A stretch of 43,087 nucleotides of DNA from a virus, in IMG/VR virus record IMGVR_UViG_3300033153_003299, positions 1 through 43,087 of that record; one strand, written 5' to 3'. How positions within the stretch are numbered: the stretch's first letter is position 1; each line of letters opens with the position of its first letter. Below, piece by piece: positions 8,906-31,789 of this stretch. A model generated the notes under the pieces. The model was not told the DNA's origin. It made no database searches and saw nothing but the letters and a program-made list of their open reading frames with translations. A program made the position numbers and the translations under genes.

Positions 8906-9066
8906 TGCTGACCTAGACAGACCCGGACAGACCTGGACTCTCGGCGGTAAAAAAAGTTTTTGGAATGTTGGCACGGTTCATGCTTTAGAATCAGCGACGC
9001 TCAAAAATCTCAATTTGGCAAGCGTGCCACGGGGAGCAAGTGCTGAGCGGACGAAAGGGGCAAATC

Positions 9067-9366
9067 ATGGCTCAGGACAAACTTTATACAGGCGGAAAAA
9101 TCGAAGAAGGTCACTACATACAGCCAAAGCTGTATCTAGTACCAGAAACAGTAGCAACTAAGACAGACGATGGTAACCGTGAACATATACAGTTACATAG
9201 ACGCTGGAAAGGTGCTGGACGGTTCAAGCATGGCACGATGTACGCTCCTGGCGGCAAAGTGGCATTGACAGACGAGAAATTGCCTATAACATTCATGGCT
9301 GATATACGCATAGGCAAAGCTCCAAAGCCAGCCCAGAGCGATACGCTAACTAAATCAGTCGACTAA
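9067..9366 (+). CDS. first gene of the early operon, unknown function
   Basis: A 99-residue protein starting at the ATG at 9067, which has AAAGGGG six bases upstream; an in-frame upstream codon at 9040 lacks a site. It is basic, with repeated Gly/Lys turns (YTGGKIEEGHYIQ, HRRWKGAGRFKHG, YAPGGKVALTDE) that suggest a small beta-rich fold. I do not recognise it. As the first product behind the control region it may be an early host-takeover or regulatory protein. Confidence 0.7.
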   Translation: MAQDKLYTGGKIEEGHYIQPKLYLVPETVATKTDDGNREHIQLHRRWKGAGRFKHGTMYAPGGKVALTDEKLPITFMADIRIGKAPKPAQSDTLTKSVD

Positions 9367-9375
9367 CAGTAACAT

Positions 9376-9405
9376 ATATGCCCCGTGCCACGGCACGGGG
9401 CATAT
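9376..9405. promoter_or_regulatory. GC-rich perfect hairpin upstream of a gene start
   Basis: A 14-base perfect inverted repeat: ATATGCCCCGTGCC (9376-9389) and its complement at 9392-9405 with two central bases. It ends 17 bases before the next ATG and just before the AAAGGA ribosome site. There is no T-run, so it is not a classic terminator. It belongs to the family built on GGCACGGGGCA described in the findings. Confidence 0.8.
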
Positions 9406-9421
9406 CACGAAAGGATACAGT

Positions 9422-9610
9422 ATGACGTTTATCAACGACAGTAACTATCCACGGTTTAAGCGACAGTATACAGCGGCTGTATCCAGTAACAGTGCAACAT
9501 TTACGTTTAACGGTAACTTGGTACTCACGGCATATGCTAAGTATGTATGTGAGTACTACGACAACTTCAAAGGGGGCAGTGATGGTGAGTGTGAGAGTGA
9601 TAATAAGTAA
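9422..9610 (+). CDS. small unknown early protein
   Basis: A 62-residue protein with a good AAAGGA ribosome site following the hairpin at 9376-9405. It contains YPRFKRQYTAAVSSNSATFTFNGN, suggesting beta strands, then YAKYVCEYYDNF and an acidic Gly/Ser/Glu end. It overlaps the next gene by 29 bases. No family is recognised. Confidence 0.6.
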   Translation: MTFINDSNYPRFKRQYTAAVSSNSATFTFNGNLVLTAYAKYVCEYYDNFKGGSDGECESDNK

Positions 9611-9746
9611 CTACCTGGAGGCATTGGGCTTACCAGATAACGACGAACATGTGGCACGGGGCATAGAGCAGAGCATAATGCGTGATAGTGTTGGTATGTA
9701 CCGGCTTGTGAGAGATGAGGCAGAGGAGGAGGTGGCACAATGTTAG
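9582..9746 (+). CDS. small unknown early protein
   Basis: A 54-residue protein whose best start is the ATG at 9582, seven bases after AGGGGG; the open frame extends upstream but has no site there. It is acidic and mostly helical (SNYLEALGLPDNDEHVARGIEQSIM, RLVRDEAEEEVAQC). The 15-mer GTGGCACGGGGCATA lies inside it at 9651-9665. Its end overlaps the SpoVG-like gene by seven bases. Function unknown. Confidence 0.55.
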   Translation: MVSVRVIISNYLEALGLPDNDEHVARGIEQSIMRDSVGMYRLVRDEAEEEVAQC

Positions 9747-10000
9747 ACATACAGGTACAGCGTATGTACAGGTTCGATACAGACAGACCGCTTAAGGCGT
9801 TCTGTGACATAGTGATAGGCGACTGCATACTGATTAAAGGTGTGCGTGTTATGACTATGGTTAGCAAGCCTAACGAGACGTTTGTGAGTATGCCTCGTGA
9901 ACAAGGTCAAGACAGTAAGTGGTATGACGTAGTGAGGTGCCTCACACAAGAGGTGCGTGACCAGATAACGAAGGTAGTACTGGAGGCTTACAATGAGTAA
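9740..10000 (+). CDS. SpoVG-like nucleic-acid-binding protein
   Basis: An 86-residue protein that matches the SpoVG pattern: an N-terminal strand (IQVQRMYRF), LKAFCDIVIGDCILIKGVRV in the position of the conserved core hairpin, FVSMPREQ, a DVV segment, and a C-terminal helix (EVRDQITKVVLEAYNE). Bacterial SpoVG proteins bind DNA and RNA and act as global regulators. A phage copy in an early operon could alter host or phage gene expression. It is translationally coupled to both neighbours by short overlaps. The assignment is from the order of conserved segments. Confidence 0.75.
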   Translation: MLDIQVQRMYRFDTDRPLKAFCDIVIGDCILIKGVRVMTMVSKPNETFVSMPREQGQDSKWYDVVRCLTQEVRDQITKVVLEAYNE

Positions 10001-10283
10001 GCCGACAGTACAGATTGACGCACATGCACACCTATCTTGGCTATGGTCGGACATAGATGGTGCTGAGCTGGTAGACAGGATTATAGAGCTGGAGACAGAC
10101 GGCTGTGAGCCTATAGCTAAGACCATAGTAGACACGGACGACTGGCAGGACGGCTGTTACAGAAACTACACACACATAAAGAACCTGGAGGAAGTGCTAC
10201 CGTACTTCAGGTATGCACCAGACAGTGAGGACTATGACGACTGTAACATCTTCAGAGAGACATTGGCAGTACGGTGGGTATAG
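9993..10283 (+). CDS. unknown acidic early protein
   Basis: A 96-residue acidic protein (VDTDDWQDGCYRNY, PDSEDYDDCNIF). It begins inside the last codons of the SpoVG-like gene and has several Trp, Tyr and Cys residues. The N-terminal QIDAHAHLSWLW resembles the start of a metal-dependent hydrolase by chance only; the protein is far too short for that family. Not recognised. Confidence 0.6.
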   Translation: MSKPTVQIDAHAHLSWLWSDIDGAELVDRIIELETDGCEPIAKTIVDTDDWQDGCYRNYTHIKNLEEVLPYFRYAPDSEDYDDCNIFRETLAVRWV

Positions 10284-10289
10284 ATATAG

Positions 10290-10313
10290 CGTCACAGCAA
10301 CAGTGCTGTGACG
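10290..10313. promoter_or_regulatory. perfect 10-base-pair hairpin between early genes
   Basis: CGTCACAGCA (10290-10299) and TGCTGTGACG (10304-10313) flank a four-base ACAG loop. It lies in the 74-base gap after the acidic early gene and has no following T-run. Its sequence is unlike the GGCACGGGGCA hairpins. Confidence 0.7.
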
Positions 10314-10357
10314 TAACACGGGTGACCAGATACAGGCAGTAGTGCTGGAGGCATACC

Positions 10358-10543
10358 ATGATGAGTAAGTGCGGCTGGTGTGGGCTATACCACACACATT
10401 TGTACACAAAGAGACGCTGGTGTCCAGATTGCATGGACAAGTGGCACGCAACACTTTCCTACACAGTAGAGCACTTCTGCAGAGAGCAGATGAAGTGGCT
10501 TAGGACAACTAAATATCGTGAGTGCAACAGTGCACGCATGTAA
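10358..10543 (+). CDS. small zinc-ribbon-like protein next to the Ubl cassette
   Basis: A 61-residue protein with two Cys pairs, CGWC (residues 5-8) and CPDC (22-25), separated by 13 residues. This is a spacing suited to one zinc ion in a ribbon or treble-clef knuckle. A basic helical tail with many His, Trp and Arg residues follows (VEHFCREQMKWLRTTKYR). The start is one of two tandem ATGs after GGAGG. It immediately precedes the ubiquitin-like modifier gene and could be an accessory or adaptor for it; that is inference from position. Confidence 0.6.
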   Translation: MMSKCGWCGLYHTHLYTKRRWCPDCMDKWHATLSYTVEHFCREQMKWLRTTKYRECNSARM

Positions 10544-10546
10544 CAC

Positions 10547-10560
10547 GGGGCATGTGCCCC
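10547..10560. promoter_or_regulatory. short GC hairpin before the Ubl gene
   Basis: GGGGCA and TGCCCC (10547-10560) form a six-base-pair stem with a two-base centre, 18 bases before the ATG of the ubiquitin-like gene and just upstream of its AAAGGA site. It shares the GGGGCA core of the neighbouring hairpins. Confidence 0.6.
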
Positions 10561-10578
10561 ACAACAGAAAGGACTAAC

Positions 10579-10788
10579 ATGTTAGTTAAAGTCGCACCCA
10601 TGGGAGAACAAGTTGTAGAGGTAAACGTGGAACAGGGGTCAACAGTAGACCAGATTCTTAACGTAGCAGAAGTGAGCGAAAACGGACGTAGTATTACCGT
10701 GAACAACGCTCCGGCTGACCTAAGCACGACTGTAACAGACGAGAACGCTGTTATCAGCCTGGCTAACAAGAGCAAGGGTGGTTGCTAA
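10579..10788 (+). CDS. ubiquitin-like beta-grasp modifier (ThiS/MoaD/PRTRC-C type)
   Basis: A 69-residue protein from the ATG at 10579, which has a clear AAAGGA site; the open frame upstream overlaps the previous gene and is not needed. The order of elements fits a beta-grasp fold: MLVKVAPMGEQVVEVNVEQG (hairpin), STVDQILNVAEV (helix), RSITVNNAPADLSTTV (strands, as in ThiS/MoaD VNG...), DENAVISLANKSKGGC. The tail is Gly-Gly followed by one Cys, so removal of the last residue would expose the Gly-Gly that E1 enzymes adenylate. The stop codon directly abuts the next reading frame. The three genes that follow encode E2-like, JAB and E1-like proteins, which strongly supports the assignment. Its targets are unknown. 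Confidence 0.85.
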   Translation: MLVKVAPMGEQVVEVNVEQGSTVDQILNVAEVSENGRSITVNNAPADLSTTVTDENAVISLANKSKGGC

Positions 10789-10794
10789 ATGATT

Positions 10795-10848
10795 ACGGGG
10801 CACGATATACACTGGTTGTTAGACGACGCATTGTATACCGTGCCCCGT
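10795..10848. promoter_or_regulatory. long GC-rich hairpin between Ubl and E2-like genes
   Basis: ACGGGGCACG (10795-10804) pairs with CGTGCCCCGT (10839-10848); with one mismatch the stem extends by TATA/TATA to 15 pairs around a 24-base loop. It sits 24 bases before the ATG at 10873, the same layout as the hairpins at 9376, 10547 and 13486, which argues that this stretch is untranslated. Confidence 0.75.
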
Positions 10849-10854
10849 GTCACT

Positions 10855-10865
10855 AAAGAAAGGGG
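10855..10865 (+). promoter_or_regulatory. ribosome binding site that sets the E2-like start
   Basis: AAAGAAAGGGG lies seven bases before the ATG at 10873. The alternative ATG at 10789 has only GGTGG upstream and would place the hairpin inside the coding region. Confidence 0.65.
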
Positions 10866-10872
10866 TAAAGAT

Positions 10873-11937
10873 ATGGACAGTACAGATATGAACGTAGGAG
10901 ACCATGTAACCATCAACAACGAAAGCTACGGCTGGGGTGCAGTACGCCAGGGTCACATTGGCATTGTTAGAGAGATATTGAACAGTACCGTCCTGTTCCT
11001 AGACATACCTGGCGTGTTCTCTCACTGGCAATGTACGAAGAGTGACGTGACACTGGTGTCTGGGTCGTCAAACATGTCACTAAACAACTACATACAGAGA
11101 TGTACAGAGACACTACAGGACAAGAAGGCAGAGACACAGAGGTGCATAAACAGTTACGAATGTAGCTTGAAGGCGTGTACAGAATCAATTGACGGCATAG
11201 TCAAGCCCAATGGTAAGGCGTTCGAGCAGATTGCAGACAGTGTGCGAGAGATACGCATGACATACCCTAAGTTTAGCTTCATCACTAATCCTATCGTAAT
11301 ACCGTACTACATGCACGCACTACACAGGACGCTACATATAGAGATGGGAGCGTACAAAGTGGCATGCAACATGCGTGATGGCAGACACAGTACAGTCATA
11401 GAGCCGTGGGACGGTACCAACCGTACCAGAGACGGCTACCCACACCCACATGTGAACGGTGGCTATGACCCTTGCTGGGGGACGTACATGAAAGACATAA
11501 ACGAATGTTACAAGACCATAGACGTAGTACGTTATGTGAGCATAGTGCTGGACTTCCTTAGCAGCTGCGACAAAGAAGGCTGGTACATATCTGTACTGAA
11601 GTGGGCTGACCCAGACGACCTGGTAGACCTATGCTCAAGTTGTGCGTGCCATGTAGACAGCTGTGAATGTGACGAGAACAGATGCTCTGGCTGTGGTAAC
11701 GACGAAGACGACTGCGAGTGTACACGTTGCCCGGACAGTAACGATAGGCTGGACGACAACAGCTTTCCAGACATAGGCTGTGTCACATGCCCAAACCTAT
11801 GTAAGAACATACCAGCAGAGAGATGGGAATGTAACTACAACAACAGCGACGGCTACCCGTACTTCTACATACCACTATCACACTTCACACCAACAGGTAA
11901 CGAGAGCAACCACGAGTACGAAACAATAACAGACTAA
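10873..11937 (+). CDS. E2-like conjugating protein with SH3-like N-terminus and Cys-rich tail
   Basis: A 354-residue protein. Residues 6-62 (NVGDHVTINNESYGWG, VRQGHIGIVREI, a Trp/Cys pair, SDVTLV) look like a small SH3/KOW-type barrel. Residues 66-125 are helical. Residues about 130-245 have the E2 arrangement: a strand region, then HPHVNGGYDPCWG (191-203), comparable to the HPN...CL motif of E2 enzymes with C201 as candidate catalytic cysteine, then two helices (VVRYVSIVLDFLSS) and WYISVLKW. Residues 254-320 hold 14 Cys in repeats of the form CxxC...CxCx4C (CSSCACHVDSCEC, CSGCGNDEDDCEC, CVTCPNLC), likely binding two or more zinc ions. The position between modifier and JAB genes matches the E2-like PRTRC-B slot as I recall it. 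The E2 call is from motif and context; the zinc tail as a ligase-like domain is inference. Confidence 0.7.
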   Translation: MDSTDMNVGDHVTINNESYGWGAVRQGHIGIVREILNSTVLFLDIPGVFSHWQCTKSDVTLVSGSSNMSLNNYIQRCTETLQDKKAETQRCINSYECSLKACTESIDGIVKPNGKAFEQIADSVREIRMTYPKFSFITNPIVIPYYMHALHRTLHIEMGAYKVACNMRDGRHSTVIEPWDGTNRTRDGYPHPHVNGGYDPCWGTYMKDINECYKTIDVVRYVSIVLDFLSSCDKEGWYISVLKWADPDDLVDLCSSCACHVDSCECDENRCSGCGNDEDDCECTRCPDSNDRLDDNSFPDIGCVTCPNLCKNIPAERWECNYNNSDGYPYFYIPLSHFTPTGNESNHEYETITD

Positions 11938-11951
11938 GAAAGGGGCTACAC

Positions 11952-12818
11952 ATGAGCAAGAGACAGTATTTCACACCAGCAGTACCAAAGCCGAAGCCAC
12001 CAGAGACGTACAAGGTGGGTCACAAGGTATCACTAAAGATTGACGTGCAACCATACATAGAGATGAGAGAGTACGCTAAACGATTCACACCAGACGAATG
12101 TAGTGGCATGGGGCTCGTGGAACGTACCGACTACACCGACGGCAGTGTAGAGTTCACGATTACAGAAGTGTTCCTGCCTAACCAATACAACAGCGGCGGG
12201 GCTACAGACATACCTGACGACGAGATGAACAAGCTCAACACTGAGCTTGTTGTAACTGGTAAGGACACAAGTAAGCTTAAGTTCCACTGGCACAGCCATG
12301 TAGACTTCAGCGTGTTTCACAGTGGCACGGACGACGAGAACTATGACGACCTACAGTCAGGCGACTTCCTAGTGTCGCTTGTAGTAAACAACAAAGGCGA
12401 CATGCTCGGCAGCGTACACCTGTACAAACCACTACGCATTGACGTATGTAACATAGAAGTAGAAGCACCGTCCAAATGGGAGCTGGACGAGGTCACAGAC
12501 ACTAAGGTCACGGGCAACGTGGCACGGGTCAAGGAGAACGAGCCTGCACTACGCAAGAAACACGCACCAGTGTACACAGGATATGGTGGATATGGTGGCG
12601 GTGGCTACGAAGTAGGTGGTTCCTGGTCGTACAAAGAGGGCTTAGCGTACGACCCAGACTTTGAGCAGTTACTCAAAGCTGGAGAGGAAGAGGGCATAAT
12701 AACACTGTTCCTAGACGACGCTGGCACGATATACGGCTACATGAACAACAACACAGGAGAGAGCTACGAGCTCATAAGCGAGATAGACATGACACTACAC
12801 GGAGGTAAAAAGGTATGA
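11952..12818 (+). CDS. JAB/JAMM metallopeptidase (deconjugating or modifier-processing)
   Basis: A 288-residue protein with a complete JAMM zinc site: E49 in DECSGMG as the upstream glutamate, H114 and H116 in HWHSH, then S124 and D127, exactly HxH-x7-S-x2-D. JAMM enzymes cut isopeptide or peptide bonds after the Gly-Gly of ubiquitin-like proteins. Here the partner modifier ends GGC, so trimming one residue and reversing conjugation are both plausible. The first 150 residues hold the catalytic domain. A Gly/Tyr-rich linker (about 208-222) leads to a C-terminal region of about 60 residues ending LHGGKKV, itself a Gly-Gly plus three residues. A strong AAAGGGG site precedes the ATG. It ends with an ATGA overlap with the E1-like gene. 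Confidence 0.9.
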   Translation: MSKRQYFTPAVPKPKPPETYKVGHKVSLKIDVQPYIEMREYAKRFTPDECSGMGLVERTDYTDGSVEFTITEVFLPNQYNSGGATDIPDDEMNKLNTELVVTGKDTSKLKFHWHSHVDFSVFHSGTDDENYDDLQSGDFLVSLVVNNKGDMLGSVHLYKPLRIDVCNIEVEAPSKWELDEVTDTKVTGNVARVKENEPALRKKHAPVYTGYGGYGGGGYEVGGSWSYKEGLAYDPDFEQLLKAGEEEGIITLFLDDAGTIYGYMNNNTGESYELISEIDMTLHGGKKV

Positions 12819-13477
12819 CAGAACTAAGACGTTCACGACAAGCAGACCTAGTGAACCCTGATATATTTAAGAACCCCATAACCGTAATAGGTTGTGGGGC
12901 TATTGGGTCGTTCACGACACTAACACTAGCAAAGATGGGCTTTCACGACATTACTGTATACGACCACGACAGCGTCGGGGAAGAGAACATAAGCAATCAG
13001 TTTTACAGATACTTAGACATAGGTAACAACAAAGCTCAAGCACTGCAAGATATGATACAAGAGTTTGAGAACATAGACATAACGTCTAACAGCTGTAAAT
13101 GGGAACGACAGCCACTATCAGGTCACATCGTCATGGCTGTAGACAGCATGACCGTACGCAAGAACATCTTCGACGCTATACGTCGTAATGCTAACGTCAC
13201 CGGTTTCATAGACGGTCGTATGGGCGGGCAACAGGCAGAAGTGTTTACCGTAGACCTTATGCAGTCGGAACACAAACGCATATACCTGCAGTACCTATGG
13301 AGCGACGTAGAGGCGTCCGAACTACCATGCACACAGAAAGCGGTTATGTACAACGTGCTTTGGATAGCCTCACAGATAGCAAACAACACACGACTTCTTA
13401 TGGAGGGCAAGCCCATACACAACGTAATGCGTATGGACTTTGAGAACGTCAACCACATCAACGTAGTACACAAATAG
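12815..13477 (+). CDS. E1/ThiF-like ubiquitin-activating enzyme
   Basis: A 220-residue Rossmann-fold adenylating enzyme. It shows GCGAIG (26-31, GxGxxG), the acidic residue closing strand two (VYDHD, D50/D52), the E1 hallmark EENISNQFYR (N58, N61, R65), K73 in NNKAQAL, MAVDSMTVR (D110, R115) and a candidate catalytic cysteine C172 in LPCTQKAVMYNV, at the position of the ThiF/MoeB and E1 cysteine. No CxxC zinc knuckles are seen. The family adenylates the C-terminal glycine of a ubiquitin-like protein and captures it as a thioester. It is translationally coupled to the JAB gene (ATGA). The protein is small, about the size of single-domain ThiF-like E1 enzymes in bacterial and PRTRC cassettes. 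Confidence 0.9.
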   Translation: MTELRRSRQADLVNPDIFKNPITVIGCGAIGSFTTLTLAKMGFHDITVYDHDSVGEENISNQFYRYLDIGNNKAQALQDMIQEFENIDITSNSCKWERQPLSGHIVMAVDSMTVRKNIFDAIRRNANVTGFIDGRMGGQQAEVFTVDLMQSEHKRIYLQYLWSDVEASELPCTQKAVMYNVLWIASQIANNTRLLMEGKPIHNVMRMDFENVNHINVVHK

Positions 13478-13485
13478 TGGCACAT

Positions 13486-13524
13486 GGCACGGTGCACTTT
13501 AGTGCCCCTTTCGTGTACCGTGCC
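13486..13524. promoter_or_regulatory. GC-rich hairpin after the E1-like gene
   Basis: GGCACGGTGCAC (13486-13497) and GTGTACCGTGCC (13513-13524) pair over 12 bases with one mismatch; an outer AGTGG/CCACT pair adds five. It ends 23 bases before the ATG of the HTH gene and just upstream of an AAAGGA site. It closes the cassette but has no T-run. Confidence 0.75.
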
Positions 13525-23359: not shown

Positions 23360-25024
23360 ATGTTACTAAGCGTAGATACTGAAACGACAGGGCTGGACCC
23401 ATTCAAGGGCGATAGACCATTTGCCATAACGACATCTGACATAGGTGGGAACACGACCTATATTGCCATTGGAGAAGACAACCTCATACCCATTGACACG
23501 TTGCTCATGTGCAGTTCAGTTACGACTATATTTCATAACGCCAAGTTCGACATCCTCATGCTTAACCAACTTGGTATGGAGGTCAAAGGGAAGATACACG
23601 ACACGATGATCGCCGCGGCGATCTACAACAGCGACGAGAACACAGTCAAGTTAAAGGACTTAGCCAAGAAATATTTAGGGGAAGATAATGACGAAGAAAC
23701 AACGATCAAAGATTATATGCGGAAGCATAAACTCACTAGCTATGCAGACCTACCTAGAGAGCTCCTCGAACCTTACGCCAGAAAAGATGCTCGAATCACC
23801 ATGGAACTCTTTAAGTTCTATCGTAAAGAAGGCGTTACGGGAGACCCCATCTATATCAAAGAAATGCAGCTCCTCAACTGTTTGGTTGATATGCAACGAC
23901 TCGGAGTCCTTGTCGACACAAAATTTTGTAAAGAGAACTCTGACAAAGTTGCCGGACGGATTGAAATACTCCGCGAATCCATAAAGCGAGACCACAAAGA
24001 CATAAACATACGAAGCCCTAAGCAACTTGCCTCGTACCTCTTTGACGACCAAGGTCTGACCTGCGACTATCTGACAGATAAGGGGCGTCCTGCCTTCGAC
24101 GAGTTCCACTTAAGCAAATACGACCACCCACTTATACCAATCATTGTCGAGTTACGTAGCCTGGAGAAAATAAAGACGACATACCTCGACGCATTACAGG
24201 AGAAGGCTGATGCGAATAAAATCATTCACTGCGACTTTTTTCAAGTTGGAGCCAGAACAGGGCGTTTCTCTTGCCGTTCTCCTAATCTACAAAACATTCC
24301 AAGATCTGGCGTCGTCGATGTTCGCCGCGCTTTTATTTGTCGTCCTGATTATTCCAATTACTACTTTGATTATTCTCAAATTGAGCTTCGCATTTTGGCG
24401 CATTATTCTCAAGAGCCTAAGATGGTCGCAGAGTATAACAAAACCGACAACGACCTCCACTCCAGAACCTGCGAAGCCGTCTTCGGAGAAGTAACGAAAG
24501 AGAAAAGGACGCTCGCCAAGAATATCAACTTCGGAATAATTTATGGGATGGGTCCAAAGAAGTTCTGCACAATGTGTAACGAGAAGTACCCAGAAATGGA
24601 AGTGTCCTACACGCAGGCACGTGACTTTATCAATAAATATTACAAGAATTACTGGAAGGTCAGAGAGTTCACGTGGCGCGTGCCACAGAAGATACTCGAT
24701 AAAGGATACGTTAAAGATGTGTTCGGGAAGAAATACACTACGCCACGGGACGAGTCATACAAAGGGGTCAACTACCTCATCCAAGGTTGTGCTGCTGGTG
24801 TGTTGAAGAAGGCAATGATAGAGTGTCACGATTTACTGGAAGATAAGAAAAGCAACATGATTCTCTGCGTTCACGACGAAATCATATTTGAAATACACAA
24901 AGATGAAGAGCACTTAGTACCGAAGATAAAAGACATCATGGAAGACTACGAAACGTTCCGTGTGCCTCTTAAGGTCAATATAGAGAAGACGTCTACTTCT
25001 TGGGCTGAAAAAAGTAATTGTTAA
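23360..25024 (+). CDS. family A DNA polymerase with 3'-5' exonuclease
   Basis: A 554-residue replicative polymerase starting at the ATG at 23360 after TAGGAG. The proofreading domain has VDTE (D6, E8), FHNAKFD (D64) and YARKD (Y139, D143), a complete DEDDy set. The polymerase domain has motif A FDYSQIE (D337), motif B RTLAKNINFGIIYG (R383, K387, F391, Y395) and motif C VHDE (D506). Phe at the position of E. coli F762 suggests discrimination against dideoxynucleotides. It lacks a 5' nuclease domain, as usual for phage enzymes. Its last 32 bases overlap the end of the giant virion gene on the other strand. Confidence 0.97.
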   Translation: MLLSVDTETTGLDPFKGDRPFAITTSDIGGNTTYIAIGEDNLIPIDTLLMCSSVTTIFHNAKFDILMLNQLGMEVKGKIHDTMIAAAIYNSDENTVKLKDLAKKYLGEDNDEETTIKDYMRKHKLTSYADLPRELLEPYARKDARITMELFKFYRKEGVTGDPIYIKEMQLLNCLVDMQRLGVLVDTKFCKENSDKVAGRIEILRESIKRDHKDINIRSPKQLASYLFDDQGLTCDYLTDKGRPAFDEFHLSKYDHPLIPIIVELRSLEKIKTTYLDALQEKADANKIIHCDFFQVGARTGRFSCRSPNLQNIPRSGVVDVRRAFICRPDYSNYYFDYSQIELRILAHYSQEPKMVAEYNKTDNDLHSRTCEAVFGEVTKEKRTLAKNINFGIIYGMGPKKFCTMCNEKYPEMEVSYTQARDFINKYYKNYWKVREFTWRVPQKILDKGYVKDVFGKKYTTPRDESYKGVNYLIQGCAAGVLKKAMIECHDLLEDKKSNMILCVHDEIIFEIHKDEEHLVPKIKDIMEDYETFRVPLKVNIEKTSTSWAEKSNC

Positions 25025-28000
25025 ATCCCTTGAACGTATCAAAGTCTAACTGTTTCCTACCTTCTGGGCTCAACAGTTGTCGTTTGAATGCTTTGATACC
25101 CTCAACAGTTCCCTGTATATTACGTATGAAATTTATAATCTTACGTACGTACTGTTCCTTAAGCTCATCAGGAGTATCACGATATTTTTCAGATTCCATG
25201 AATCTACCCAGAGCGGTCATTATCTTAGGACCAGCATCTATGTTAAACTGACGCTGTTGCTCTGCGGTAAGACGTGTCTTGATACTTGCTTTCGATCCCA
25301 CAGGTATTGGAACAGCCTTAGTTTGTGGAGCATCGCCAGGGAATATCTTGAGTCTTTGCAACTCCTCTAAGATAGCATCTTTCTTTGGCTTTCTACCACC
25401 ACCCATTATCTCCGTCATAGTCACACGACGAGAACGCTTAGCGATCTCACCAGTAAAGTCCACACGACGCACTAAACCTTTGTCGGATAGAAACGGGTAC
25501 GTCTCTTGAAGCTTTCCTATAGGTCCTTTGAACTTAGGTAAACCGGAGCGAATCTCTTCTCCAACTGCTTTTGGAGTCGGCAACCCTGTCGGTATTCCGA
25601 ATACGTTTAGAGACTCCCCAGAGGTCTCGAATATAGACCTGTCTTCTTCAGCTATATCAATACCGAACATCTTCCCTGTACGTTTTATCTCTCTTAGCTG
25701 AGCCGGTATAGCCCGACCCGCAAGCAATCTCTTGAAATACCGTTGCAGACCGGAACGCATAGAGGCTTGGTCAGCGCTTCCGTCCGCATTAACCGCTACC
25801 TTCTCATCTAGCAGACTGCCCGTGGCACGGTTTATTTCGTTAAGATTGTTGTACACACTCTGTTGGAGCATACTCTTAACAAATGCGTTAGTCTCACTAG
25901 CGTACACGTCTTCCGCAGGTTCGTTGTTTAATATACGTTTGTTCTTCTGCGTAATAGCCGCTAGAGCGGACACGAACGGCGTTGCTGGTAGAAGGTTATT
26001 CATTGGAAGTGTTCCTTTGATATTACCGTCCTTATCCAACCACTCAATACGGATTTCTTCCAAATCCCTCATCCGCACAATGTTACGTTCCTCTTTAGTC
26101 TTAGCGACTCCTACAAACCTACCGTTATTCTTCCATACGTATGCTGCGAGAGCTGTGGTCACAGCCATCCCATTGATAGCTTTTCCGACTTCCTTGGCGT
26201 CCAGCCCTCTAAAAACAAACTCGACATTACCAGCTTTTGTCCTGGTACCAACCATCCTAGCGGCTTCTTCTATTAACTTAAGCACGCTTCTGTTCCATAC
26301 GAATCGTCCTAGCTTCACAGTAGTCTTGAAGAATGGTACCAGAGCTTTCCCGACAGGAACTCCTAATGGGCGTATACCTCCTATGAACTCCGACGCTTTT
26401 GTCATAGTTTTACTGAGCTTGTCACGGAACACGTATTCCATAGCAGATTCCACAAGGTCTTCTTTTTCCTTCCGTGTAAACCGTGTTTGCTTGATAACCT
26501 TTCGCCAATTCTTTGGGTCGGTACGCATTGCTTTCTGCACCTTAGCTGCCGCGGTCACACCACCTTTAGCAATTTCTCCGAAGAACTTGTCGGTCCCCAC
26601 GAGTATTCTGGATCCGGTATTGGTTATTGCCCCCGTCGTATCGAACACAGACGTAAATACAGGATGCTTACGTTCAAACTCACTCCCGAACTGTCTCCGT
26701 GTAGAAAAAGACTGCCCACGTCCTGCACGTACCTCAGACATTCGTGTCACGTCTCTCTCACGTAATTCAAACCTAGCTTCTTCCATTAGCTTACGAACCT
26801 TTGTGCGTTGCTTCGCCGTGGCTGGACCTTTCTTCAAACGTTGTTTCCTAATTTTCTTAGTAATGTTTCTAAGGATGTTCTCAGTGTCCCCAAATCTAAG
26901 GAACTTCATACCTCGGCTAACAGCTCGTGGGAGAGCAGCAATCTGCCCAACAATGAGAGCTGGTAGCTCTGCAAAGGACGCCTTGTTACGTGTTCCAGGA
27001 ATGAGCGATACTATTGCTTGCCCAAGTTTATCTCCTGGCTGTAGCGCAACTCCTATTGTGTTACCGACGAGATTCCTCTTTATAGTCACGGCACTGAACA
27101 ACATATTATTTACGCCTACTTCGTGTATTAAGTCCCACAAATTAGCCCGTTCACTATGTGTCTCAAGTCGTGTTATGATGGCTCCAATCTCTTTGCGTTG
27201 TGCTGGAGAGAGCTGTGCGTCGTCTAACAACTGGCGTAATTTAGTCAGATACGCTTTCGTTCGACGAGGTTTTCCAGAAGCGCGTAGCATACCCCCAAAG
27301 GCGTTCCTTAATGTTATCCAATCATGCGCAGCTTCAATAGCCAAATCTGCCTTAGTGATTGGGTCTAACTTAGGATTATCTAAGATATTCAGCCCGATGT
27401 TTACGGGTACGTCCGCCATAGCGAAGCGCTCTTCCGGGGCTAGGTTTATGAAGTCTCTGAATACCCTCATCATCTTCTTAGTTATTGGGGTCCCTTTCCT
27501 AAGGGCGTCAGAGATAGTTGGGAACTTATCTAAAATTGTTCGGTCCATCTTAGAACCGCGTACGATCAGTTCGGCGAGCTCTTTGGAAATCTCACCTTTT
27601 GCTAAGAGCTTTCCTACTGGGATATTGTTTATCTGTGTACCCCCGACCCACCCCATCTTACCGGTAGCCGGATTTAATTTATATACAGCAAGGTCTATCT
27701 CCGGTGTTTTCATAGCCTCTTTTTCAAAATCAAGTAAAACCTTAGATTTCTTAACCGTTTTAGGTTTGCCATCTGGAGTAACGGATCCGGGGACTGTCTT
27801 CGTCGGAGACGGTGCTTTAGGGATTATTTGTTCCTGCAGTTTTATAGATTTCAGAATACTTTTGACCTGCTTATCACCAAGCCCAAGGTCTTCTTTCAGA
27901 TACCGTCCGACACCTTTATTGACTTTCTCCGCGCTCTTCAGTAAACGCTTCATTGCATCTTTACCAGCATCATCCATCCCTATACTACCTAACCCCATAC

Positions 28001-31000
28001 CTATGCGTCCGCGGATTGGCTTGATGCCCTTGAGAACGGTCAATATATCGTTCTTCTTCGATTGTAACGTACGCTTTTGTAGCTTAGCCGATTTGAATAT
28101 CCCCTTAAGCTGCCCTATGTCCACAGATATATCGTCAAGGGCTGCTAAACGCCGGTTAGCGTCCTGCGCTGTTATCTCACCCTCTCTGTACAATTCGTTA
28201 TACAGTCCACGTTTGTTCTTTATAACCGCGTCCACAGAAACTTTGTCCATCTTCGCTTCGTTTACTATGGACGTACGGAGAGAGGGCATAGTAGGGTGCG
28301 CTTTTCTACGTGCTATCAATTCGCTAAGGTTAATTTCTTTCTTAGCTAACTTATCTTCTAGTTGACGTATCACTGTTTTGAATGCTCTAGCTATATCGAC
28401 ATTACCTTCAATTTCTGCTTTCGCTAAATCTGTTACGTGGTCTGCTAAATCTGCCTGAATATTACCTATCTCGGAATGTAAGTCTTCTACTTTTTGACGG
28501 TCTTTGGCACGTGCATCGTCTACAAAGGATCTAGGACGACGATCTTCTAGGGACTCCAATTTACGCAATTCTTTGAATCTCTGTTCCCGTAGACGTCTTA
28601 TATCGCTTATTTTTTGGTCAATAGGAGGGTCGGCAGTTATGTCTGTTGTCTTGCTTTTTATTAACTCACGAATCCTTTCATTAATGGCATCACTCTCGAA
28701 ATTCCTTTGCTTATCCGCACTCCTGCCAGCTCCTTCCTTATGCAGATCAGGAACGAGGTCCTCTAACTCCTTAGTGAGCTTGTCCGCCTGCTGTTTAGAA
28801 GCAACGATCTCTTTGGACTGCTTTGATAAAGGGTTGAGAGCGACTTTCTTCTCAAAGTGTTCTATATCAGTGGCAGCTTTCTTTTGCGCCTTAATATCAC
28901 CACGTCTTTTTGCTGCCCGCTTATTTACTTTCGCCACGTTTAGGCTTTTCGTATCCTTCGCAAGTTGCACGGATGTATCAGTAAGGGAAGGGTGTGCTTC
29001 TTCTAGTATCGCTGCTTTGTCACCACGTATAGTCTTCTTACCTTTTGGGAAGAAATCTGTATCAATGCTCTCCTGTATGAATGTGTCCATGTCCTTCGAC
29101 TTACGCGCCACCTCACGCAGATTCTCCGTGCGCACGGTGTAAAAGTCACGTTCGCTGCGTACGATCTTGTCTACGTCTTTGTCGGTAAGATTAAATCTAG
29201 CTTTGTTCTTCACTACGTACTGTTTGAAGTTCTTGAAGGAAGAACGTTTGAAGTCTTGCAACAATCGTGCAAGGGCTTTCTTAGACTTCTCACTTGGTTT
29301 TAGTCCACCGAACTGAAGCTCTTTCCCAGGAGTAAGAACGTCACCAATATCTTTTACCTGATCCTTAAGAGTACGTCTTGTCGCTTTGGCTTGCTTCTTC
29401 AAGTTCTTGAATAGTTTGGACAACGGGGAACGTGTCCCTATCATCTTGCTATGTACGTTTGCTATATCCTCCATGATGTCAAGTTGAAGGGGTTTTAGTT
29501 TCTTACCGGACTTCAAATTCTTAGCGATAGCCGCTATGCGTTTATAAGAATACCCACTCAATTCCTCAGGGAATCCCCCAGGGATATTCGTAAAGCCTCC
29601 TTCTGGCTTGCGTACCTTTATAGATGGCTCTGCATCTCCGAGCATATTTACTACATCATCCAATGCCTCAGAGATTTTTGGGTGCTGCTTGAATTTAACC
29701 TTATCTGGTTTTGACGTCGCCGCGCTAAATTTTTTAATCAGAGCTTTTGTAGGTTTAAACGCTTTTATATCTGCTTTTGATAACCCGCCAGGAAATGTAG
29801 TTACTACTACTGCCCCATCCCTACCTTCCGCGATAGCTTTTGCAGATTGCTCTTTTATAAATTTTTGGGCTTTTTCAAAACTGTTGAATTCTGTTTTACG
29901 ACCCTCAATAATTACCTCTAGCCCACTCCCTTTATCCTTTGGCTTAAAAGTCACCTTTAATAACTTATCTTTAGCCGCTGCCTTAGAACCTTTCTTAAAA
30001 ACCACTTCCTCAACCTTTTCTGGTTTTATCTTAACCTTTACGAGACCTTTTGTTTTCTTAACGACTTTCTTAGCAATCTTTTTCTTCGCAGCTTTCGCGG
30101 CACGTGCCGCTTTCTCCTTAATAAACGGAAACTCTACCTGCTCTCCCTTAGACGCACGAAGTTCTGACGGAGTCAATTTCCCCTTACCCTGCTTCAACGC
30201 AGCCTCTGCCGCTTTACCTTCTCCCACTTCAAACGGAGTGAAAGGTTTGTCCGTCGGTAGACCTGGTCTGTGTTCTGCCTGTCCTTTGAACGGCTCAAGT
30301 TTCTTTTCCAACCCTTTCGACGCCTGCTTCTTCTCAATAGCAGCTCTGCTCAATCTTTCCTGCGCTACCTTACCTGACTCTTTATTAAAAGGAGTGAACG
30401 GGACTTCTTTCACCCTGCCTCGTCCTACATCTGCACCCTTCCCACCTCCCAGAGATTCTTGCAACCGATCTTGCTCAGCCTGAGCGGCACGTTCTATAAT
30501 GTTCTGCTTCTCAACCTTCGATATTTTTGACTTCTTTAATTTCTTCTGACGTTCTAAGCGATTTCTCTCCGCTATCTCACGTTGTTGGCGCTCATACGTA
30601 ACTTGCCCTTTACCCTTATCTCCTGGAGTAAATGGTCTATCTTTGCGTGTACCTCGACCAGCTTCCTGTTCTGCAGATGATTCCAACGATTCTTGCAACC
30701 GTGCCTTCTCAGCAGCTTCTGCTTCCGCTATAATCCTTTTCTTTTCAGCCTTTGGTATTGCAGACTTTTTCAACGGTTTCTGTCGTTGCTCTAGCGCCCT
30801 GCGCTGCAAATCTGCTTGTCTTGCAGCATCCGCCGCTTGCCCTTCCTCTTTCCCGAAAGGAGAGAACGGTCTATCTTTACGTGTCCCTCTTCCAACCTCT
30901 TGTCCCTTAAATGGTCGAAGAGCCTCGTCTAACTTACCCTGATCCTGTATCCTTCTTTGTTCCAGTAGCTTTCCCTTCTGTGCCTTGGAGAGAGCTGACT

Positions 31001-31781
31001 TCGTCTGCCGTGCCCCTTCTTTCACTTCAGATAACTTTAACAATTCCTGTGCTGCCTGCTGACCTTTCTTGAATCTTCTCGACTTCATAAAGGCATGCGC
31101 TGCCTTAAACGGAACCCCTATGGATCTGAATATCGCTTCAGCTGACGCAACATCTCCCGCTATTCCCGTCGCAACCTGCGGTAATACCAAGCTATCCCTT
31201 ATCTCATCGTGCGAAATTCCGGCTTTTACAGCCGCATCAATATCCGGCTGCATACGGTTAGTGAACTCTTTAATCAAACGATTACCAAGAAATCTATCTT
31301 CTTTCAAAGCACGTTTCCCGCGCTCTCCGGCTGTGAGTTCAGGGTCTTCCCCGAACAGTCCAGCAACTGCGTCAGTCACTAGGCGCTCAGCGATAACAAC
31401 CGTGTCTATAATAGGAGCGGCACCCGCTAACGGAGGAGCCAATAATGTGGCAGGCGGAACTTTCCCTGTGTCAAGCCCGAAAGCCATTGACGTAAGAGGG
31501 AATGCTTCCTCTCTGGAAACTTCTCCGAGATTCTTAGTAATATCAAGCCCTACTTTCCCTATGGCTTGTCCTGATTTGAACTCTGGAGATATAGCTGGAG
31601 GGGTAATCCCGAATGGTCCCATCGCAGATGGGTCTGGTGGAGTGGGTAATTCTCTCTTAATAGCTGGGTTTGGGATATTAACATCAATAACCTCTCTCGC
31701 AGGAGCGGAGGCAGGGACGTTAAATACTTCGCGCTTATCTAAGAAAGGATTTGGAATATCTACATCAATGATCTCTGGCAT
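24993..31781 (-). CDS. giant internal virion (ejection) protein
   Basis: A 2,262-residue protein from the ATG at 31781, with AGGAGAGG upstream. The N-terminus holds two copies of a short motif (IIDVDIPNPF, VIDVNIPNPA). Residues about 280-530 are very charged and contain four copies of GRGxxKDxPFxPxxKxxGQ near residues 298, 377, 454 and 506, embedded in Arg/Glu/Gln-rich helices. A Lys/Ala-rich stretch follows (AARAAKAAKKKIAKKVVKK). The rest is mostly predicted helix with basic patches and several hydrophobic segments. No RNA polymerase, lytic transglycosylase or peptidase motif was recognised. Very large helical proteins at the end of podovirus structural operons are typically packed in the capsid and ejected into the host; the role here is inferred. 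Confidence 0.8.
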   Translation of the reverse strand: MPEIIDVDIPNPFLDKREVFNVPASAPAREVIDVNIPNPAIKRELPTPPDPSAMGPFGITPPAISPEFKSGQAIGKVGLDITKNLGEVSREEAFPLTSMAFGLDTGKVPPATLLAPPLAGAAPIIDTVVIAERLVTDAVAGLFGEDPELTAGERGKRALKEDRFLGNRLIKEFTNRMQPDIDAAVKAGISHDEIRDSLVLPQVATGIAGDVASAEAIFRSIGVPFKAAHAFMKSRRFKKGQQAAQELLKLSEVKEGARQTKSALSKAQKGKLLEQRRIQDQGKLDEALRPFKGQEVGRGTRKDRPFSPFGKEEGQAADAARQADLQRRALEQRQKPLKKSAIPKAEKKRIIAEAEAAEKARLQESLESSAEQEAGRGTRKDRPFTPGDKGKGQVTYERQQREIAERNRLERQKKLKKSKISKVEKQNIIERAAQAEQDRLQESLGGGKGADVGRGRVKEVPFTPFNKESGKVAQERLSRAAIEKKQASKGLEKKLEPFKGQAEHRPGLPTDKPFTPFEVGEGKAAEAALKQGKGKLTPSELRASKGEQVEFPFIKEKAARAAKAAKKKIAKKVVKKTKGLVKVKIKPEKVEEVVFKKGSKAAAKDKLLKVTFKPKDKGSGLEVIIEGRKTEFNSFEKAQKFIKEQSAKAIAEGRDGAVVVTTFPGGLSKADIKAFKPTKALIKKFSAATSKPDKVKFKQHPKISEALDDVVNMLGDAEPSIKVRKPEGGFTNIPGGFPEELSGYSYKRIAAIAKNLKSGKKLKPLQLDIMEDIANVHSKMIGTRSPLSKLFKNLKKQAKATRRTLKDQVKDIGDVLTPGKELQFGGLKPSEKSKKALARLLQDFKRSSFKNFKQYVVKNKARFNLTDKDVDKIVRSERDFYTVRTENLREVARKSKDMDTFIQESIDTDFFPKGKKTIRGDKAAILEEAHPSLTDTSVQLAKDTKSLNVAKVNKRAAKRRGDIKAQKKAATDIEHFEKKVALNPLSKQSKEIVASKQQADKLTKELEDLVPDLHKEGAGRSADKQRNFESDAINERIRELIKSKTTDITADPPIDQKISDIRRLREQRFKELRKLESLEDRRPRSFVDDARAKDRQKVEDLHSEIGNIQADLADHVTDLAKAEIEGNVDIARAFKTVIRQLEDKLAKKEINLSELIARRKAHPTMPSLRTSIVNEAKMDKVSVDAVIKNKRGLYNELYREGEITAQDANRRLAALDDISVDIGQLKGIFKSAKLQKRTLQSKKNDILTVLKGIKPIRGRIGMGLGSIGMDDAGKDAMKRLLKSAEKVNKGVGRYLKEDLGLGDKQVKSILKSIKLQEQIIPKAPSPTKTVPGSVTPDGKPKTVKKSKVLLDFEKEAMKTPEIDLAVYKLNPATGKMGWVGGTQINNIPVGKLLAKGEISKELAELIVRGSKMDRTILDKFPTISDALRKGTPITKKMMRVFRDFINLAPEERFAMADVPVNIGLNILDNPKLDPITKADLAIEAAHDWITLRNAFGGMLRASGKPRRTKAYLTKLRQLLDDAQLSPAQRKEIGAIITRLETHSERANLWDLIHEVGVNNMLFSAVTIKRNLVGNTIGVALQPGDKLGQAIVSLIPGTRNKASFAELPALIVGQIAALPRAVSRGMKFLRFGDTENILRNITKKIRKQRLKKGPATAKQRTKVRKLMEEARFELRERDVTRMSEVRAGRGQSFSTRRQFGSEFERKHPVFTSVFDTTGAITNTGSRILVGTDKFFGEIAKGGVTAAAKVQKAMRTDPKNWRKVIKQTRFTRKEKEDLVESAMEYVFRDKLSKTMTKASEFIGGIRPLGVPVGKALVPFFKTTVKLGRFVWNRSVLKLIEEAARMVGTRTKAGNVEFVFRGLDAKEVGKAINGMAVTTALAAYVWKNNGRFVGVAKTKEERNIVRMRDLEEIRIEWLDKDGNIKGTLPMNNLLPATPFVSALAAITQKNKRILNNEPAEDVYASETNAFVKSMLQQSVYNNLNEINRATGSLLDEKVAVNADGSADQASMRSGLQRYFKRLLAGRAIPAQLREIKRTGKMFGIDIAEEDRSIFETSGESLNVFGIPTGLPTPKAVGEEIRSGLPKFKGPIGKLQETYPFLSDKGLVRRVDFTGEIAKRSRRVTMTEIMGGGRKPKKDAILEELQRLKIFPGDAPQTKAVPIPVGSKASIKTRLTAEQQRQFNIDAGPKIMTALGRFMESEKYRDTPDELKEQYVRKIINFIRNIQGTVEGIKAFKRQLLSPEGRKQLDFDTFKGFNNYFFQPKK

Positions 31782-31789
31782 CACCTCTC

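Follow-up and report, generated by a model that had tools for sequence, protein, structure and literature searches.

Does a bacterial virus carry a ubiquitin-like conjugation cascade of its own? The question is raised by an IMG/VR virus record of 43,087 bases (IMGVR_UViG_3300033153_003299), here analysed whole and called the window, whose coordinates are used throughout. Four neighbouring genes in it had been read in a first-pass annotation as encoding a ubiquitin-like modifier (Ubl), an E2-like protein, a JAMM peptidase and a ThiF/E1-like enzyme. Known bacterial cascades of this kind are mostly viewed as antiphage defences or plasmid modules, and a complete cascade sited in the replication modules of phages would reverse the picture, with bacterial viruses possessing ubiquitin-type tagging of their own. 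According to our analysis, the cassette very probably encodes a ubiquitin-like conjugation pathway, self-sufficient and reversible, that the phage expresses.

Four clustered genes with conserved active sites

All four open reading frames (ORFs) are present on the + strand, in a tight cluster upstream of the replication genes of the window: the Ubl precursor (10579..10788, 69 amino acids, with a KGGC end), the E2-like conjugating enzyme (10873..11937, 354 amino acids, with an alternative start at 10789), the JAMM metalloprotease (11952..12818, 288 amino acids) and a ThiF/MoeB-type E1 (12815..13477, 220 amino acids). Their starts had been described as abutting or overlapping. This holds for the JAMM and E1 genes, which overlap by ATGA, but an 84-nt gap precedes the E2-like start at 10873; the in-frame upstream ATG at 10789 is the one that abuts the Ubl stop. 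The start at 10873 has a ribosome-binding site of the AGAAAGGGG type, and the same type is found at the JAMM start.

The Ubl gave a weak Pfam match to SAMP2 (E=0.0017), which the Ubl profile also matches at 0.018. In its AlphaFold model (predicted local distance difference test score, pLDDT, 85) the elements follow one another as in a beta-grasp fold. With this model, Foldseek retrieved ubiquitin and NEDD8 (probability 1.0), and VIA retrieved SAMP1 (Z 9.2), MoaD-type proteins and ubiquitin. The prediction therefore agrees with the earlier call of a beta-grasp modifier ending in GGC, which hinged on the fold of this 69-residue protein. Across nine aligned Ubls the two glycines of the GG are the only invariant columns; zero to two variable residues follow them in the relatives (C, RG, N, R, K, IH, SK or none). 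In one locus, L010 (L-numbers are the labels of the collected relative loci), a single ORF at 9940-10353 comprises two Ubls in tandem, with a KGG-QK junction and a KGGK end, and its sequence looks like that of a polyubiquitin precursor. Both the short tails and the tandem arrangement imply the need for a peptidase to process them, a part that the JAMM protein would play.

The JAMM protein carries E49 and H114-S-H116-x7-S124-x2-D127, the exact HxH-x7-S-x2-D signature first noticed. Pfam Prok-JAB matches it at 6e-5, slightly under the curated cut-off, and a profile search reached Rpn11-type chains with a best E=5.5e-12. E49, H114, S115, H116, S124 and D127 are invariant across 15 JAMM proteins. 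The E1 consists of a single adenylation domain (Pfam ThiF, E=7e-16), with ThiF/MoeB as its best-scoring models. It has the GCGAIG motif and every catalytic residue listed for it in the first-pass annotation, and the invariant columns across 21 E1s include G26, G28, G31, D50, N58, K73, D110, R115 and C172. It also resembles the PADLOC E1-E2 models (2e-13) and 6A-MBL (7e-13); these PADLOC/NCBIfam matches are to the E1 parts of E1-E2 defence proteins and lie below cut-offs where these exist.

The E2-like protein was the weakest call before. It is laid out as a small N-terminal domain, a coiled coil, an E2 core and a Cys-rich tail. The core (11206..11619, about residues 112-249, pLDDT mostly 74-92) contains H191-P192-H193-x7-C201-W-G203, with Cys201 as the predicted catalytic residue. 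Only H191, P192, C201 and G203 are invariant in 13 aligned E2-like proteins, and only the same H, P, C and G in 21 E2 cores from phages and bacteria. Pfam gave no match for the window protein, and the Prok-E2 Pfam models gave none at E<=1 for it and nine relatives, a search in which HMMER filters drop weak matches. The AlphaFold model, built from a 13-row alignment, has a mean pLDDT of 66; the core, about residues 121-250, is well predicted and the remainder poorly. When the model was compared with known structures by VIA-align, the best 50 matches listed were all E2s, with Z up to 6.9 and with UBE2S aligned over 103 residues at 3.1 Å. A VIA Z below 8 may reflect just a common arrangement, and a profile of the 21 cores was therefore searched against PDB sequences as a second test. 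Human UBE2L3 chains came top (E=5e-4), nearly all of the best 60 matches listed were E2s, and the alignment sets HPH over HPN and the Cys over the catalytic Cys. In the E2 of L009 the motif is the eukaryotic-type HPN, and a UQ_con match appears there (0.014, below the cut-off). Among the 2,007 ORFs of at least 150 amino acids in the collected loci, 36 contain the pattern HP[HN]-x(5-9)-C-[WLFYM]-G, and all 36 are cassette E2s, that of L052 being recognised by position and motif, not by profile. With the sequence profile and the structural matches of the model in agreement, the predicted E2 identity is now solid, and both the HPHV...PCWG motif and the E2-type fold proposed for the 354-residue protein are borne out.

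The Cys-rich tail (11632..11835) is probably zinc-binding: 12 Cys columns are invariant in the seven relatives aligned. It found no match in the PDB, and it is missing in some relatives, for example L007 and the bacterial L049 and L050. For the N-terminal domain (10885-11064) the best PDB sequence match is the E3 ligase HERC2, a weak similarity (whole-sequence E 0.0044, best domain 0.11) that may serve as a lead and no more. In L011 (2-5913), six successive ORFs match the E2 profile (1e-6 to 3e-78), forming an array ahead of JAMM and E1.

Recurrence in phages and bacteria

Relatives were found by scans of viral contigs (IMG/VR phages). Searches of the phage collection with P0002 and P0003 (by tblastn) and with 24 kb of window DNA found nothing, and no relative came from scanning viral contigs with P0002 by itself. 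The order Ubl-E2-JAMM-E1 is kept in L002, L003, L004, L007, L008, L009, L012 and L015. In a census of 24 viral loci with more than 4 kb upstream of E1, a JAMM gene lies within 3 kb in 23/24, an E2 is present in 21/24 and a recognisable Ubl in 12/24; these numbers are indicative, since the census includes a few near-duplicates and some of its E2 and Ubl loci had served to train the profiles. E2s from outside the training set match the E2 profile as well (L039, 5e-21; L040, 2e-20; bacterial L049, 4e-26). The genes therefore occur jointly in related phages, where consistently separate occurrence would have spoken against the first-pass reading. As the catalytic residues and the GG of the Ubl are invariant columns in divergent relatives, the motifs go beyond chance. 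Motifs, profiles, predicted structures and recurrence together strongly support a complete Ubl-E2-JAMM-E1 set in a phage, and its presence in many other phages points to a use of ubiquitin-style tagging by phages in the course of infection.

The cassette is not restricted to phages. A genome scan detected the same gene set in Myxococcales and other metagenome-assembled genomes (MAGs), and the three Myxococcales genomes that were searched each have three or four E2 copies. Binning errors are possible in MAGs; several of the bacterial copies are on contigs of more than 200 kb. One copy lies near genes for a DnaG-like primase and a Replic_Relax protein, a neighbourhood suggesting a mobile element. 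Cassette E1s of phages and of bacteria are intermixed in the E1 tree, where the other ThiF proteins make up one separate group (support 85/85).

Divergent forms of the cassette recur in the crAss-like phages crAss001 and DAC15, in Flavobacterium phages (Fpv) and in a Xanthomonas jumbo phage; E1 relatives are encoded in all three groups, in the last by more than one phage. In crAss001 (L044:1271-5681), gp78 has an MHSH...CTG stretch, gp77 a JAMM motif and gp76 a ThiF domain, and the set adjoins primase and uracil-DNA glycosylase genes. The annotations of gp79-gp76 are, in turn, hypothetical, hypothetical, metalloprotease and thiamine biosynthesis protein; as a set, these genes seem to be a diverged form of the window cassette. 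Kinship of the E1 and JAMM proteins is supported, and that of the E2-like and Ubl genes is likely. In hhalign the crAss E2 matches the window E2 with a probability of 41% (E=3e-4) over the HxH..C.G stretch only, a suggestive sequence likeness and nothing firmer. The crAss Ubl (gp79) profile did not match the window Ubl profile, so the crAss N-terminal beta-grasp is read by position and eye only. In the passages of the crAss papers that were consulted, ubiquitin and ThiF go unmentioned. In Xanthomonas phage PhiXhv-12, GG forms the very end of a Ubl-like ORF, and topoisomerase genes lie nearby; no JAMM was detected in the whole record of this phage. This is a single case, and other exact-GG Ubls keep a JAMM.

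A proposed conjugation pathway

The conserved active sites and the established chemistry of these families lead us to infer the following steps. The JAMM protein would remove Cys69, the residue after Gly-Gly, from the Ubl. The E1 would then adenylate the Gly68 carboxylate and capture the Ubl on Cys172 as a thioester, from which it would pass to Cys201 of the E2-like protein and on to amino groups of target proteins. No E3 was identified for the cassette; the N-terminal domain and Cys-rich tail of the E2-like protein could perhaps choose substrates in place of a separate one. The JAMM protein would also take the tag off targets. The likeliest targets would be host or phage proteins of early infection or genome replication.

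Several observations weigh against such a pathway. The Z of 6.9 for the E2-like model falls in the range possible for a common arrangement, and Foldseek alone, run with the full model against the PDB, gave no significant match (best E 0.55; bacterial E1-E2-Ubl chains appear at E 1.4). The Ubl ends without GG in some relatives (L016, L017, L048), and none was recognised in half of the loci. The E1 is devoid of a separate Cys domain or ubiquitin-fold domain, so E2 recruitment must differ from that in eukaryotes. Finally, the Ubls of several relatives already end in GG and JAMM is still kept, and trimming therefore cannot be its sole role.

Genomic surroundings

The + strand of the window also encodes a helicase, a primase and a DNA polymerase. 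On the − strand are genes for the portal protein and large terminase, tail-fibre-like genes at 34-41 kb, and an ORF of 2,263 amino acids (24993-31784) that had no PHROG or Pfam match at the thresholds used and is perhaps a giant virion protein. A perfect palindrome, GGGGCATGTGCCCC, lies at 10546-10559, directly upstream of the Ubl start, and a GC-rich stem-forming stretch lies downstream of the E1 stop (about 13491-13506). Promoter and terminator scans gave signals no higher than in shuffled controls.

Among the relatives, neighbouring genes encode a primase-helicase (L022, L027) or an exonuclease and a single-stranded DNA-annealing protein (L015). Directly downstream of the L007 cassette, on the same strand, is a gene for a ClpA/ClpC-type AAA+ unfoldase (8962-11481), which hints that tagging may be connected with unfolding or degradation. 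No such unfoldase was found in the other collected loci; in some phages, a nearby one could couple the tag to these processes.

Role in infection

What would a phage do with such a pathway? An early, non-structural role, first suggested by the location of the window cassette, is supported by the placement of the cassette beside replication genes in distant phages, and this recurring placement favours a role in early infection over one in virion assembly. We tentatively propose, at somewhat less than an even chance, that the cassette represents a distinct and complete Ubl-conjugation family, found widely among tailed phages (the cultured gut phages crAss001 and DAC15 among them), that re-programs host or phage proteins in early infection. 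Host takeover or a block of defence would be such a role, and regulation of replication proteins or exclusion of rival phages fits equally; virion assembly and sulfur transfer are less likely than these three. The tag might control replication proteins of the phage itself, as SUMO does with replication factors. In line with this, the cassettes of distant phages repeatedly adjoin genes for primase, helicase, polymerase, exonuclease and topoisomerase; the argument is positional, and phage early regions mix replication and takeover genes. We hold this particular role to be rather unlikely. Slightly more doubtful still is competition between mobile elements, in which the tag would be placed on rival-phage proteins, as Bil acts against phages, to bring about superinfection exclusion. 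The occurrence of the cassette in bacterial MAGs, in several copies per genome and once beside primase and Replic_Relax genes, points that way, whereas a site in the core replication operon, as in crAss001, suits a role in the phage's own cycle better.

A sulfur-carrier pathway, with the Ubl as a ThiS/MoaD-like thiocarboxylate carrier and ThiF and JAMM serving cofactor, cysteine or tRNA thiolation, would agree with the ThiF/MoeB models that the E1 matches best and with the likeness of the Ubl to SAMP2 and MoaD-type folds. The cassette nevertheless includes a conserved E2-like enzyme with an invariant HP..C.G, and we know of no role for such an enzyme in sulfur transfer. No thiamine, molybdopterin or rhodanese match was seen among the window proteins scanned, and the E1s of E2/JAB operons never carry rhodanese (Iyer 2006, PMC1779556); we regard this pathway as very improbable. 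Modification of a structural protein, as an elaborated form of the lambda TAPI-JAB pair, has a precedent in the JAB/Ubl pairs of lambda/T1 tail operons (PMC1779556). It is nonetheless improbable here: the cassette lies on the + strand with early genes while the − strand encodes the portal, terminase and tail-fibre proteins, the relatives adjoin replication genes, and the crAss001 paper, where it treats virion mass spectrometry, gives structural proteins and RNA polymerase subunits, with gp76-gp78 unmentioned.

Cultured crAss-like phages with related, blandly annotated genes make the proposed tagging testable now. The HP(H/N) E2 family, the single-domain E1 and the di-Ubl precursor bear on the origin of eukaryotic ubiquitination.

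Comparison with known systems

No account of a phage-borne E1-E2-JAMM-Ubl set was found in the literature, of which our coverage is incomplete, so that an earlier mention is possible. In Bil (BilABCD), one of the closest known systems, the four genes are named in the same order, Ubl, E2, JAMM and E1, and JAMM trims the Ubl before activation. BilB has a CEHH motif, with His after the Cys, and BilD combines inactive and active adenylation domains with a Cys domain (PMC11354881). In the window family, by contrast, HP(H/N) precedes the Cys of the E2, there is no invariant His downstream of it, and one ThiF domain of 220 amino acids makes up the window E1. Bil is moreover a bacterial defence, whereas the window cassette is found in phage genomes.

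PRTRC, too, has separate genes for a Ubl, an E2-like protein, a JAB and a ThiF-type E1, carried on mobile DNA. We take it to be operon type 6d of Iyer 2006. In type 6d the E2 has no upstream His, an additional domain precedes the rest of the JAB at its N terminus, and the operon includes an extra helical protein (PMC1779556); in the window E2 family, the upstream His is invariant. The NCBIfam models PRTRC_ThiF (45.5 bits, cut-off 144.75) and PRTRC_A (12.9, cut-off 101.8) both score far below their cut-offs. CBASS (cyclic oligonucleotide-based antiphage signalling) type II Cap2/Cap3 and 6A-MBL have E1, E2 and JAB chemistry in common with the cassette, but their E1 and E2 are fused, whereas the window has separate genes and a dedicated Ubl, and neither a nucleotidyltransferase nor a metallo-beta-lactamase was seen at the window cassette.

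Phage Ubl and JAB have been described in lambda/T1 tail operons only (PMC1779556). The TAPI-JAB pair shares a phage-encoded Ubl and JAMM peptidase with the window cassette, yet it lies in a structural operon and has neither E1 nor E2; the cassette has both, outside a tail operon. The archaeal SAMP/UbaA system with JAMM1 likewise has a single-domain E1-like enzyme, a small Ubl and a JAMM protein, and SAMP conjugation, unlike the window cassette, needs no E2 (PMC11354881). By their stated features, the cassette fits none of PRTRC, Bil and CBASS. Features of a ubiquitin-type conjugation cascade are found in it all the same: a predicted E2 fold with an HPN-type His and a Cys, an E1 with its characteristic residues and Cys, and a predicted beta-grasp Ubl with GG.

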